The notes under the pieces are model-generated. The model did not search any database, had not been told where the DNA came from, and saw only the letters and a program-made list of their open reading frames with translations. This document shows positions 2,690 through 33,055 of a DNA stretch of 64,000 bases, piece after piece. The stretch comes from Pelagomonas calceolata (taxonomy: Eukaryota; Sar; Pelagophyceae; Pelagomonadales; Pelagomonadaceae): positions 5,518,001 to 5,582,000 of the forward strand of contig CAKKNE010000001.1 in assembly GCA_918797485.1 (NCBI GenBank). The letters run 5' to 3'. How positions within the stretch are numbered: position 1 is the first letter of the stretch; each line of letters opens with the position of its first letter. The translations under genes and the position numbers were made by a program.

Positions 2690-4200
2690 CGGTGTCTAGC
2701 TGTTGGATGCGTCACCTCTGTTGCACGCGTCACCTCCCGTCACCTCCTCAGCGATGCAGGTTAATGCTGCGAGCAAGCGATGCGACCTCAGCTGTATCAG
2801 CAGCGGTGTCAACTGCAGCGATGCCACACTACACAGCGATGAAATCGGCGTGTAACACTAGTGTGTATATACATTAGCCATGGATCCTAAAACAACGGGT
2901 TCCTTACACCAGCGATTGACGACGCCATCTACCGTCCAAATGGTACATCATATCAACTCCAGCCCAGTTTTCATCCACAATCGACGGAACCGCGGCCGAC
3001 GGCCCGCGCCCGGAGGGCGGGAGAAGAGTTCTACTAGACAACTCCCGAGTTTATGTTCGTTTTTATCCGTTTGTTGGTGGTAGAGTCCATACAGACCGCC
3101 TGAACACGTACTCATCTATTTTAGATGCTCCGTTAGAGCCGCCGGAATCGACGATTCGGCAGCCTCACGTTTGTACAAAGATGATCCACAAACCTGAACC
3201 CGCGACTATCAGCGACGCCACTATCCAGATGGACCATAACGCCGTTGTTCTATTCACGATCGACCGACTTGCCCGTTCTCCGCGGACGACGGTACGTACG
3301 CGGGGCACCGGAAAGGCCCCAGACCGGTGAGTTATAAAATAAATTTGCGTTTCAGGCGCTTCGGTTACGGGACGGGCCAGATAACCGGCCTGACTGCCTA
3401 CTACATTGCTCCGAGACCCCAAGATGCTCGGCGCGGGTCGACGGACTCGCGACCACAGGATCTTGTGAAATCGGGGCACCAGACCCGGACCTGCGACCAT
3501 CAGCCCGTGTACCTTCACCATGGACCATAACGCGATCATTTGTTTCATTATCGACGGACTTACGCGAGGTCCAGATAAAGATGTTCACGTCCCGAGCGTG
3601 GGCAGCCAAAAGTACCCTTCTTATAATGTAGATGTCATATACTTGTAATTGACTATTGTTGGGGTAGTATGGGGTCCGACGAGACCGCTAATACGATTCC
3701 TGGGGGGTCTCGAGTAATTGACGTTTTGACGGGGGACGGGGCGCCATCGGGTCCAAATTGCACACTTTTTTCGGGGGCAGATCGGCTTCTGGAGGTCTCT
3801 CGGAGTAGGTCTGGTTGTGGGTAAGCGCCTGCACCGCATACGCCGTCGATGCGGCAGTCTAGTGCTCTCAGAGAGCCCTGGAAGCGAGTCCTCGGCAAAA
3901 CCTGCTATTGCTCTGTGGGCTGCTGAGAGAAATCGGCCAAAAATGCTTGAAGCGGCGGCGTATGCGTGGTAGGCGTTTGCACGTGTATAGTACCGACCCT
4001 AGGCGACCCCATGGAGACCTCTTTGGCCGGGATTGACAGGTTTTAGCTGGTGCGGCCGCCATATAGACCGTAGGGCGCCCTCGGCCGCGAATTAAAAAAT
4101 TTAGTTTTTCGGCCCCCCGTACGTGTCCCATTGATCTCTTTGGACCATTAGCGAACGGAACGGTACTCAAACGACTGCATGCCGCGTTTTGGTTTTGCTT
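2690..4200. other. 1.5 kb gene-free region with diverged repeats
   Basis: No open frame here looks like a protein. The stretch is poorer in G+C than its flanks and contains a diverged direct repeat about 292 bp apart (3189–3275 and 3481–3565, both around the words GACCATAACGC and ATCGACGGAC/ATCGACCGAC). A third, weaker echo lies near 2973. A short A/T hairpin lies near 4095–4111. It may be decayed mobile DNA or a long 5' region; nothing more can be supported. Confidence 0.6.
3189..3565. repeat. Diverged direct repeat pair (~85 bp copies, ~292 bp apart)
   Basis: Copy 1 (3189–3275) and copy 2 (3481–3565) share CTGCGACCATCAGC-like and GGACCATAACGC blocks and end in similar CGACGGACTT/CGACCGACTT words, with an estimated 70% identity by eye. 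The copies are in the same orientation. No terminal repeats or coding frame were found that would name an element. Confidence 0.5.
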
Positions 4201-31023: not shown

Positions 31024-33055
31024 ATGAACAAGCTCCTCTGGGCGCTCTTCGCCGCCGCGGCGGCCTTCGCCCCGGCCCCGGCGCCGCGCGCCGCGCGGCC
31101 CGTGCTCAAGGCGGTCAACAACGGCCGCGGCGTCGCGCAGAAGCTGCGGAGGTCAGGCGTCCGCCTTCAAGCGAAGGCAGAACCCCCGCGCGCCGCCGTC
31201 GTCGCGCAGGCCGCGGCGGCCGCCGTCGAGGACGCCGAACCGACGTGGTTCGACACGTACACCAAGGTCTCCGGCGCCTTGACCAACTTATTTCCGGTCT
31301 GGACGGTCGTCTTCACGTTGTGGGCCCTCAAGGACCCGTCGGCCTTCGCCTGGCTGACCACTAAATACTTCACGGCGGGCCTAGCGATTCTCATGCTGAG
31401 TATGGGTATTACGCTGGCCCCGAAGGACTTCCAAAGAGTGGCGACGCGGCCCAATGCGGTGTTATTGAACTTCGCGCTGTGCTACGGTACCGCGGCCAGC
31501 GTCCTATATTCATAAAGGGGGTGTAGCTCAGTGGCAGAGCGTCCGCTTTGCATGCGGAAAGCCCAGGGTTCAAACCCCTGCTCCTCCACACACACAAAAA
31601 CAACTCCGTGGCGCAATGGACAGCGTATCAGACTTCGAATCTGGGGGTTGCGGGTTCGAGTCCCGTCGGAGTTGTTTGCGTTCGCTCGACGGCGCGACGC
31701 CGCCGCCGCGACGCACCACGATCTTTCGTGGCGCGCCTGCTCGACGGCGTCACGCTGTCGCCGCGACGCACCACACCACACAAAATCTGGACGGACTGGA
31801 AATCTGAAGGCTCCGGGTTCGACTCCCGGGTCGGTCTACCGCGGAATTGAACTCAAAGCGAGATAGTGTGGCCGAGTGGTTAAGGCGGTAGACTTGAAAT
31901 CTACTCCCGCAAGGGTCGCAGGATCGATTCCTACAAAATCGATGCGCGTTCGAACCCTGTCACTATCGCGCACGTTGATGATGTGGCCGAGTGGTCTAAG
32001 CTCCTGGGAGCGACCAGAGGCGCTGGTTTTAGGCACCAGTCTTCGGGCGTGGGTTCGAACCCCACCATCATCACTTGAGTTCCATGCCGCACGTTCGTAT
32101 CCGTGGCCGAGTTGGTCTAAGGCGTTGGATTTAAGCCCCAATCTCTCCGGAGGCGTGGGTTCGAACCCCACCGGATGCACACATTTGACCGATGACGGTT
32201 TCGCCAATCAGATGCCAGTCCTGAGAGTTAATCGTGTGTCGGACACGAGGCTGACGGTACACTCTCGCAGGCATGATGCCGGCGCTCGGCCTGACCCTGG
32301 GCAAGATGTTCGCGCTAGATCCGGCTTTAGTGGCAGGGATGGTCCTCGTCGGCTCGATCAACGGCGGCCAGGCGTCGAATCTCTGCACGTTCATTGCGAA
32401 CGGGAACGTGGCCCTCTCGGTGCTCATGACGACGGCAACCACCATTGGAGCTATCTTCATGACTCCCCTATTGTGCAAGACCTTTCTGGGGACGGTCGTG
32501 CCCGTCGACGCCGCGGGCATTGTCGTCTCTACTCTACAGGTCGTCCTCGCGCCCATCTTAGTAGGCATGACGATGAACGCCAAGTTCCCGAAAGTCGTGA
32601 AGAAGATCACTCCTGTGACACCCGTCATAGGCATGGTCTCTACCTGTCTGCTGGTGGCCGCGGCTGTCGGGCAGGTCGCCGAGCCGATCCTGGCGGCTGG
32701 CCTCAACCTGCAATTACCGGTAATGCTCCTCCACTTGGTCGGCGGCATCGTCGGCTACTGGGGCGCTCGGGCTCTCGGCTTCGGCGAGACGTCGTCGAGA
32801 ACGATGGCCATCGAGACCTCGATGAAGAGCTCGGCCTTCGGCTTTTTACTAGCGAAGCTCCACTTCGGCGCCTTCGCCGCCCGCGTGCCTTCCGCGGTGT
32901 CCGTGGTCTGGATGGCGCTGACGGGCTCGTCGATGGCCGTCGCGTGGCGCTTCATGCCGGTCAAGCCGGTCAAGTTTGATAGAAAAGTCAAGGAGCGCTT
33001 CGAGTCCGTGGATCTCCTCACGCGGGCGAAGAAGCTCTTCGGCAAGGAGAAGTAG
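31024..33055 (+). CDS. Plastid BASS-family (bile acid:Na+ symporter-like) transporter; intron carries tRNA genes
   Basis: join(31024..31486, 32271..33055), 415 residues. The leader ALFAAAAAFAPAPAPR is of the ASAFAP plastid-targeting type. The BASS domain has about nine helices: YFTAGLAILMLSMGITL, then the exon junction in FALCYG|MMPALGLTLG, LVGSINGGQASNLCTFIANG (sodium-site region), VVLAPILVGMTMNAKFPKVV, SSRTMAIETSMKSSAFGFLL. Plant BASS proteins carry pyruvate and other organic acids across the plastid envelope; the substrate here is unknown. Splicing GT 31487 to AG 32270 joins phase 1 codon Gly and restores a full-length domain. The intron contains four to five tRNA genes. Confidence 0.88.
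31517..31588 (+). tRNA. tRNA-Ala(UGC)
   Basis: 72 nt, complete cloverleaf. Acceptor GGGGGTG pairs with CTCCTCC including the G3·U70 alanine identity pair; one T-T mismatch at 6:67. Anticodon stem TCCGC/GCGGA with loop TTTGCAT gives anticodon TGC. T-arm CAGGG-TTCAAAC-CCCTG. No intron. Confidence 0.93.
31602..31674 (+). tRNA. tRNA-Arg(UCG)
   Basis: 73 nt. Acceptor AACTCCG pairs fully with CGGAGTT, discriminator G. Anticodon loop CTTCGAA gives TCG. T-arm GCGGG-TTCGAGT-CCCGT. It starts 13 nt after tRNA-Ala; a T run (TTGTTT) follows. Confidence 0.93.
31684..31774 (+). repeat. 36-bp direct repeat pair inside the tRNA-bearing intron
   Basis: 31684–31719 and 31739–31774 differ at only a few positions (GCTCGACGGCG, CGCGACGCACCAC shared). 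The connecting GCCTGCTCGACGGCGT resembles the GCCTGCTCGATGGCAT segment of the introner at 27365, so this may be introner debris. Confidence 0.7.
31790..31837 (+). tRNA. tRNA-like 3' half (T-arm and acceptor), partial
   Basis: A perfect T-arm CCGGG-TTCGACT-CCCGG (31813–31829), including a B box, is followed by GTCGGTC, which can pair with GACGGAC at 31790–31796 except for one central G-G. Between them only about 16 nt remain, so the D-arm and anticodon arm are absent. It could be a truncated tRNA gene, a 3' half, or a tRNA-derived repeat end. Confidence 0.4.
31862..31968 (+). tRNA. tRNA-Ser(UGA) with a 26-nt insertion at the T-stem/T-loop junction
   Basis: Acceptor GATAGTG pairs with CACTATC, discriminator G. 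D-arm GCC...GGC, anticodon stem GTAGA/TCTAC with loop CTTGAAA (anticodon TGA), and a long variable arm TCCC-GCAA-GGGT mark tRNA-Ser. The T-arm should read GCAGG-TTCGAAC-CCTGT, but 26 nt (31923–31948) separate GCAGG from TTCGAAC. The insert folds as ATCGATT (31923–31929)/AATCGAT (31937–31943). The acceptor, anticodon and variable arms are intact, which argues against simple decay. Confidence 0.8.
31923..31948 (+). other. Candidate ectopic intron in T-arm of tRNA-Ser
   Basis: The insert's 7-bp hairpin is flanked on the 5' side by a three-base bulge AGG (31920–31922) and then CGC (31917–31919), pairing with GCG (31944–31946). This is bulge-helix-like but with a 3-bp central helix and no exact fit of the standard cut sites to the expected mature T-arm. 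A partial duplication of the T-arm is the alternative. Confidence 0.5.
31977..32073 (+). tRNA. tRNA-Leu(UAG) with a 19-nt insertion in the D-arm
   Basis: 97 nt. Acceptor GATGATG pairs fully with CATCATC, discriminator A. Anticodon stem CTGGT/ACCAG with loop TTTAGGC gives TAG. Variable arm TCTTCGGGC, T-arm GTGGG-TTCGAAC-CCCAC. The D-arm reads GCCGAGTGGTCTA, then 19 extra nt, then AGGC. Without the insert the D-arm is a standard eukaryotic tRNA-Leu D-arm. It begins 8 nt after tRNA-Ser. Confidence 0.88.
31999..32017 (+). other. Ectopic tRNA intron with bulge-helix-bulge motif
   Basis: Central 4-bp helix GGTC (31993–31996)/GACC (32012–32015). 3-nt bulge TAA (31997–31999) on one strand and AGA (32016–32018) on the other. 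Inner helix GCTC (32000–32003)/GAGC (32008–32011) closed by CTGG. Cutting after the second base of each bulge removes exactly 31999–32017 and leaves GGTCTA joined to AGGCGCTGG, the normal tRNA-Leu D-arm. The outer helix is weak. Confidence 0.8.
32097..32179 (+). tRNA. tRNA-Leu(UAA)
   Basis: 83 nt. Acceptor GTATCCG pairs with CGGATGC (one T-G wobble), discriminator A. D-arm GCCGAGTTGGTCTAAGGC is uninterrupted, serving as an internal control for the UAG gene next to it. Anticodon loop TTTAAGC gives TAA; long variable arm; T-arm GTGGG-TTCGAAC-CCCAC. Confidence 0.92.

Follow-up and report, generated by a model that had tools for sequence, protein, structure and literature searches.

A putative bulge-helix-bulge intron in the D-arm of a nuclear tRNA-Leu(UAG) gene of Pelagomonas calceolata

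The interrupted tRNA-Leu(UAG) gene

The window analyzed here is a stretch of 64,000 nt from the pelagophyte alga Pelagomonas calceolata (C1:5518001-5582000). It belongs to an assembly of 8 contigs with 32,445,274 bases, which was the genome searched below. The window contains an array of tRNA genes, and one of them, tRNA-Leu(UAG), is interrupted in its D-arm by a 19-nt insert that is most probably a tRNA intron of the bulge-helix-bulge (BHB) type. This intron had been proposed in a sequence-only reading of the window, and the letters and coordinates given there for the gene, the helix, the bulges and the hairpin all proved correct on re-reading. The gene is composed of the following elements; the helix strands and both cut sites were located by the rule defined below and by an unconstrained fold.

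31977..32073, + strand, interrupted tRNA-Leu(UAG) gene (Rfam tRNA model, 53.3 bits; spliced form tRNA-Leu(tag) by ARAGORN; six genomic copies)
31993..31996, + strand, 5' strand of the central helix, GGTC, in the exon
31997..31999, + strand, 5' bulge TAA, predicted cut after 31998
31999..32017, + strand, putative 19-nt D-arm intron between tRNA positions 21 and 22 (deletion restores the mature tRNA; insert drifts, exons fixed)
32000..32011, + strand, intron hairpin GCTC-CTGG-GAGC (GCTC 32000-32003, GAGC 32008-32011)
32012..32015, + strand, 3' strand of the central helix, GACC, in the intron
32016..32018, + strand, 3' cut site AGA, predicted cut after 32017; internal loop in the fold

Here the rule means a 4-bp central helix with a cut after the second base of each 3-nt site. 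Applied to the window gene, it removes exactly 31999-32017 and regenerates a tRNA-Leu, as had been claimed: the remaining 78-nt sequence is called tRNA-Leu(tag) by ARAGORN, which gives no call for the gene with the insert. The 53.3-bit Rfam match spans the whole of 31977-32073, insert included. The insert is found at position 21/22, not at the canonical eukaryotic 37/38, and CCA is not encoded 3' of the gene. A group I intron had no match at gathering scores in the window, where only five tRNA matches were obtained, and the insert has just 19 nt. Three cut registers, including that between 31998 and 31999, yield an identical mature sequence for the window gene; the copy at C2:6056444 allows a single register, and it is the same cut as that given by the rule in the window.

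Copies of tRNA-Leu(UAG) across the genome

The genome search with the 97-nt gene as query yielded six matches on three contigs, all of full length and all with an insert. An intact tRNA-Leu(UAG) gene, which the sequence-only reading had considered as another possible source of the tRNA, was not among the six matches of this one search, which a divergent gene could escape. In all six copies, the central helix GGTC/GACC retains four of four pairs, and removal by the rule restores the mature tRNA.

The mature sequence is identical in five copies. In the sixth, the acceptor stem is changed in both partners of one pair (GATGTTG with CAACATC). Four copies share the intron stem GCTC/GAGC, while one copy has TAACC/GGTTA and another ACCC/GGGT; these changes, too, are two-sided. 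Pairwise identity ranges from 97 to 100% in the exons and falls to 44% in the introns. The means over the 15 pairs are 0.991 for exons, 0.676 for introns, 0.833 for the 40 nt upstream and 0.762 for the 40 nt downstream, the 40-nt flanks including parts of neighbouring tRNA genes.

Genes with and without inserts

Natural controls are provided by two tRNAs that occur in both forms. The first is tRNA-Leu(UAA), whose copy adjacent to the gene in question is uninterrupted, as the sequence-only reading had noted:

32097..32179, + strand, uninterrupted tRNA-Leu(UAA) gene (ARAGORN, Rfam)

With a pattern that required an unchanged 5' end and would miss divergent copies, ten distinct copies were found in the fetched loci (numbered L below), six of them of 83 nt and four with D-arm inserts of 20, 20, 21 and 24 nt. 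For each of these four, one deletion only restores the 83-nt sequence, and it is the deletion made by the rule; the restored sequence matches the uninterrupted form, including its T/C variant in the variable arm. The central helices consist of TGGT with ACCA or GCCA. The other example is tRNA-Val(UAC), which is uninterrupted in L087 and carries a 27-nt insert at 12/13 in L108. Here the rule (TTGG/CCAA, one of two registers) restores the L087 sequence around the junction; the T-stems of L108 and L087 differ, and the L108 letters were used in the comparison. A BHB-type intron in the D-arm of tRNA-Leu(UAG) is thus strongly supported by sequence comparison, because all six copies found carry it with co-varying stems, and because tRNA-Leu(UAA) and tRNA-Val(UAC) exist as plus and minus copies.

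Chance expectation and folding

The design of the insert exceeds chance expectation. After shuffling of the insert letters, a 4-bp central helix together with a stem of at least 4 bp at the tRNA-restoring junction was obtained in 17 of 20,000 cases for the window copy. The counts over the six tRNA-Leu(UAG) copies were 17, 28, 18, 7, 30 and 32 of 20,000, and for the inserts of tRNA-Leu(UAA) 43, 33, 66 and 5 shuffles of 20,000 were as good.

In the unconstrained RNA fold of the window gene, the TAA 5' bulge, the hairpin and the central helix all appear unaided, the helix being extended to 5 bp by one additional U-A pair. The copy on C6 folds like the window gene. The stability of the window pre-tRNA is mild (z -1.70; 12 of 200 shuffles as stable), and for the three pre-tRNAs folded the z values of -1.70, -2.10 and -2.96 against shuffles are modest. 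Folding had been suggested as a check, and it reproduced the bulge, the hairpin and the central helix, but with only mild stability and a 3' bulge that is not strict. The motif is relaxed, and the case leans on comparison more than on folding energy.

Other interrupted nuclear tRNA genes

The tRNA-Leu(UAG) intron appears to be real, and it is not an isolated case: further families are interrupted. The immediate neighbor in the array is one of them:

31862..31968, + strand, interrupted tRNA-Ser(UGA) gene (Rfam, 36.5 bits over 31862-31941; ARAGORN only after intron removal; six genomic copies)
31923..31948, + strand, putative 26-nt intron of tRNA-Ser(UGA) at 53/54 in the T-arm, central helix CGCA/TGCG (0 of 20,000 shuffles as good; letters rechecked)

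This insert splits the T-loop. The rule is obeyed in all six tRNA-Ser(UGA) copies with CGCA/TGCG, and 0 to 8 of 20,000 shuffles equal it. It is also fully obeyed by a 25-nt D-arm intron of tRNA-Leu(AAG) in L098 (TTGG/CCAA) and by a 22-nt variable-arm intron of tRNA-Lys(UUU) in L061. A single intron at 8/9 is observed in tRNA-Phe (L083) and one in tRNA-Glu(UUC) (L119), whereas the tRNA-Glu(CUC) gene of L114 contains three, one of which has four central pairs. In shuffles at fixed junctions for the Lys, Glu(CUC), Glu(UUC) and Phe introns, 0 to 119 of 20,000 were as good, each count being judged against the pair number observed in that intron. The spliced Leu(AAG), Lys, Glu and Phe forms were assigned to the expected isotypes by ARAGORN, which is permissive.

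In total, nine interrupted nuclear families are observed: Leu(UAG), Leu(UAA), Val(UAC), Ser(UGA), Leu(AAG), Lys, Glu(UUC), Glu(CUC) and Phe. Uninterrupted nuclear genes are also common, among them those for Ala, Arg, Trp, Thr, Pro and Sec, and several copies of Leu(UAA). Before removal of the inserts, ARAGORN is blind to Leu(UAG), interrupted Leu(UAA), Ser, Val, Lys, Glu and Phe, and it makes a truncated call for Leu(AAG).

Among regions fetched for a T-arm pattern, closed T-arms were found in six from a batch of 20 (L093, L096, L098, L100, L106 and L108) and in three from a batch of 16 (L114, L118 and L119); by eye, L096 is not tRNA-like, and the T-arm of the Ile-like L060 does not close. An A-box pattern without mismatches gave two nuclear places, Lys and Ile. 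A 1100-nt query made of 15 common eukaryotic tRNAs gave only six genome matches, three of them on organelle contigs, and therefore most nuclear isotypes remain uncatalogued. Organelle-type tRNAs and a transfer-messenger RNA (tmRNA) were found in loci from two contigs of 90,574 and 39,373 bases; the paper on the P. calceolata RCC100 genome describes a nuclear sequence of 32.4 Mb in six contigs, together with a plastid contig of 90 kb and a mitochondrial contig of 39 kb (PMC9481584).

As a separate observation, L087 contains two tRNA-Sec(UCA) genes (1404-1490 and 1983-2069), each directly downstream of a Trp gene, and the first is followed by Val.

Splicing enzymes

Splicing-endonuclease domains (PF01974) are encoded at C5:536022-536258 (minus strand) and C2:3400105-3400335 (plus strand), with scores of 71.9 and 64.2 bits against a cut-off of 27. 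The domain pieces carry Y, H and K at positions that we take to be catalytic. The endonuclease search covered PF01974. A full-length match to the RtcB ligase is present at one locus, C5:639988-641304 (minus strand).

The host intron of the array

The remaining genes of the array and the flanking exons are as follows:

31024..31486, + strand, exon 1 of the host SBF-family transporter gene (joined frame)
31487..32270, + strand, predicted 784-nt GT-AG spliceosomal intron enclosing the whole tRNA array
31517..31588, + strand, tRNA-Ala(UGC) gene (ARAGORN, Rfam)
31602..31674, + strand, tRNA-Arg(UCG) gene (ARAGORN, Rfam)
32271..33055, + strand, exon 2 of the host SBF-family transporter gene (joined frame)

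The array is placed inside a spliceosomal intron, in the same sense as the host gene, because joining the two flanks gives an open frame of 415 aa that matches PF01758 (SBF) at 4.1e-40; this test covers the array of the window only. The motif GTACCG...CGGTAC was noticed near the ends of the host intron, by eye only, and a decayed tRNA-Trp-like copy lies at the end of the array (32187-32250).

With at most one mismatch, the border motif GTACCGCGGCSGCGTCC was found at 41 places in the genome, 12 of them exact, compared with 12 places for the reversed control. The border of the window's own intron, GTACCGCGGCCAGCGTCC, resembles GTACCGCGGCSGCGTCC but is outside the 41 places. Downstream of all 12 exact copies a tRNA match starts on the same strand within 8-25 nt; nine of these matches are to the 5'-end pattern of tRNA-Trp and three to the tRNA model. 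The 12 copies are not all independent, since two of them, located at about 168 kb on C1 and on C5, lie in what may be the 393-kb duplication described for the RCC100 genome (PMC9481584). An approximate count of border motifs (up to 4 mismatches; 19 of 67 tRNAs with a border less than 400 nt upstream) was discarded as weak, as 45 of 500 antisense stretches also pass. Apart from these counts, Trp-type tRNA 5' ends occur at many places on C1, C2, C5 and C6, several of them between intron-like borders, which is an unusual multiplication of one isotype.

A run of at least five T within 40 nt downstream was found for 3 of 67 tRNA matches (L006, L060 and L061), leaving 64 without; the 67 are matches in the fetched loci, intronic or not. 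Within 60 nt, the interrupted genes of L098, L108, L114, L118 and L119 have T-runs of 8-9, the uninterrupted Val gene of L087 has a run of 6, and L100 has none. Intronic arrays thus appear not to be ended by ordinary terminators of RNA polymerase III (Pol III), and their tRNAs may be released from the host transcript. The host intron is apparently a member of a family of tRNA-carrying, introner-like introns. According to PMC9481584, the RCC100 genome has an intron-length peak near 210 bp that is typical of introner elements. As with the introners of pelagophytes (Aureococcus, Pelagomonas), the intron-like stretches considered here appear to share borders; in contrast to them, these stretches carry tRNA genes, and the one in the window has 784 nt.

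Interpretation and alternative explanations

The best explanation overall, to which we assign a probability of about 0.9, is that 31999-32017 is a genuine ectopic tRNA intron, which would be removed by an endonuclease and a ligase, in an array situated within a spliceosomal intron. In the folded pre-tRNA, GGTC of the 5' exon would pair with GACC at the 3' end of the intron, leaving one cut site per side. A tRNA splicing endonuclease of the Sen2/Sen34 type would then cleave both 3-nt sites behind their second base, and A21 and A22 would be joined by a ligase, most likely RtcB, to yield a normal tRNA-Leu(UAG). The gene belongs to the nine nuclear families observed with introns at scattered positions, as in Cyanidioschyzon merolae, and it is carried along with other tRNAs by a spliceosomal intron from what is apparently a tRNA-bearing, introner-like family. 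The observations cover the anatomy of the insert, its conservation and co-variation, the plus and minus copies and the presence of the enzymes; from them we infer cleavage and ligation in the cell, and likewise the mode of transcription of the array.

Several points weigh against this explanation. The motif had been described as a textbook BHB. The central helix, the hairpin and the 3-nt sites stand, but in the fold of the window gene the 3' site is located in an internal loop that faces D-loop bases and that the D-stem closes, and for this reason the motif is relaxed (HBh'-like). In the best fold of the C2_6056 copy, GGTCTA is paired with TAGACC and the 5' bulge is moved off the cut site of the rule, the bulge of the rule being seen in two of the three folded pre-tRNAs; for the spliced 78-mer, the cloverleaf is not the best fold. 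Among the other families, a second intron of tRNA-Lys(UUU) (L061; 13 nt, acceptor stem) has a 4-bp helix without a real hairpin. Only three of four central pairs are formed in two of the tRNA-Glu(CUC) introns, in the tRNA-Phe intron and in the tRNA-Glu(UUC) intron of L119, the last having been placed by hand after no strict solution was obtained. Its near-identical inverted copy in L118 gave no strict solution either, and by eye has an acceptor mismatch. Approval by ARAGORN alone is weak, because it accepts poor tRNAs as well as many arbitrary joins of two tRNA halves in L106 (see below). Finally, genome coverage is not exhaustive, with 63 of 492 candidates scored in the tRNA family search and 100 of 151 places listed for the T-arm pattern.

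Alternatively, the tRNA-like sequences could be dead passengers spread in introner-like introns, with inserts that are damage never removed. The copies do lie in arrays with repeated intron-like borders, in which the decayed Trp-like copy at 32187-32250 and tRNA halves are also found, and the lack of T-runs of at least five in the 40 nt downstream of 64 of the 67 tRNAs fits the same picture. Against this, the average identity is 99% in the exons, compared with 76-83% in the 40-nt flanks and 68% in the introns, and both the intron stems and the acceptor stem show two-sided changes. Moreover, the rule restores the mature tRNA in all six Leu(UAG), all six Ser(UGA) and all four interrupted Leu(UAA) genes, and single genes with T-runs are interrupted as well. 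We consider this explanation unlikely.

Still less probable is that the mature tRNA retains the 19 nt and has an enlarged D-arm. The insert forms a hairpin, the anticodon arm still folds, and the Rfam tRNA model accepts the gene as it is; yet tRNA-Leu(UAA) and tRNA-Val(UAC) occur with and without such inserts, the Ser(UGA) insert breaks up the T-loop, and the insert drifts in both length and sequence. An assembly or sequencing artefact can practically be dismissed: the assembly is Nanopore-based, but it is also Illumina-polished (PMC9481584), and six loci on three contigs carry differing inserts of one design.

Beyond the ectopic intron itself, a broader scenario is possible, though we hold it only tentatively. 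The tRNA genes may have been spread by introner-like introns and may be transcribed by RNA polymerase II within the host pre-mRNA; they would be freed by the spliceosome or by nucleases acting at tRNA ends, and their BHB introns would then be removed by the tRNA endonuclease, giving introns within tRNAs within introns. Under this scenario, BHB introns would still be gained or lost, because Leu(UAA) and Val(UAC) exist in plus and minus copies. If it is true, the lineage allows direct study of the origin of tRNA introns.

Comparison with known systems

The sequence-only reading placed introns outside position 37/38 in archaea, some red algae and nucleomorphs, and such introns are described in the literature for archaea, a red alga and a nucleomorph (PMC3978253, PMC9602550, PMC4090602). 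Nuclear genes of C. merolae contain ectopic introns of 11-69 nt, relaxed BHB types included, whereas green algae have almost no ectopic tRNA introns (PMC3978253). The P. calceolata genes share with C. merolae short introns outside 37/38, a strict or relaxed BHB and multiple introns per gene. In the Ile(UAU) gene of C. merolae, introns are found at 12/13, 37/38 and 53/54 (PMC9602550), of which 12/13 and 53/54 are the sites used here by Val and Ser, respectively. Here, however, the host is a stramenopile, thus from another supergroup, the same tRNA occurs with and without an intron, and the array of the window lies in a spliceosomal intron.

In the nucleomorph of Guillardia theta, insertions of 3-24 nt occur in the D and T arms, with excision confirmed by reverse transcription PCR (PMC4090602). 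Insertions in these arms of eukaryotic tRNA genes are common to both systems, but in P. calceolata most cases show a clear motif, and the genes lie in an ordinary nucleus. Archaeal introns occupy non-canonical positions such as 20/21, 22/23, 45/46 and 53/54 (PMC4090602). They resemble those described here in BHB design and in position; the difference is that the genome is that of a eukaryotic nucleus and that CCA is not encoded after tRNA-Leu(UAG).

The kind of intron is known (C. merolae type), while the lineage is new within the literature searched, and the setting in a spliceosomal intron is an unusual variant. A scan of IMG/VR for the Leu(UAG) design gave no match. The claim that ectopic BHB tRNA introns had no report from a pelagophyte nucleus is in line with our literature searches, which returned none for a pelagophyte or stramenopile nucleus and whose coverage excludes most subscription journals and bioRxiv preprints. 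The main text of the RCC100 genome paper does not contain the word tRNA (PMC9481584).

To date, reports of ectopic BHB introns in eukaryotes come mainly from a single red alga and from certain relict algal nuclei (PMC3978253, PMC4090602). If the present set holds in an open-ocean stramenopile, the splicing endonuclease would work at sites remote from the anticodon in one more supergroup. The tRNA annotation of such genomes would miss interrupted genes; the paper on tRNAscan-SE 2.0 treats non-canonical introns under its archaeal mode and states a limit of one intron for eukaryotic tRNA genes (PMC8450103). Comparison of near-identical copies within one genome would also open intron gain and loss to study, and the location of a tRNA array in a spliceosomal intron poses a separate question, that of tRNA transcription.

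tRNA halves and candidate permuted genes

One candidate for a permuted gene is located in L106 (385-389, minus strand; C2:4253584-4253588), where a 3' half lies upstream of a 5' half in the order CTGAAGG, A, TCT and CCTTCAG, with seven of seven acceptor pairs. The junction of the halves showed no convincing BHB among the joins listed. Tyr and Ile(UAU) were considered from the anticodon arm, but no junction among these joins was supported.

The array of the window also includes an isolated half:

31793..31837, + strand, tRNA 3' half lacking an adjoining 5' half, leader GGACTGG (six copies, co-varying T-stem)

The discriminator (position 73) is T in all six copies. In L043, a lone Trp-like 5' half (3266-3300) is found downstream of a 3' half (2955-2999), with Ser and Leu genes between them. 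The L043 halves could make up a permuted tRNA-Trp with these genes nested in its intervening stretch, but it is unlikely to be a working gene, since all six copies have T at position 73 and two of them (L043 1846 and L045) differ in their leaders. In the 31793-31837 half, GGACTGGAA is complementary to TTCCAGTCC, the anticodon region of Trp.

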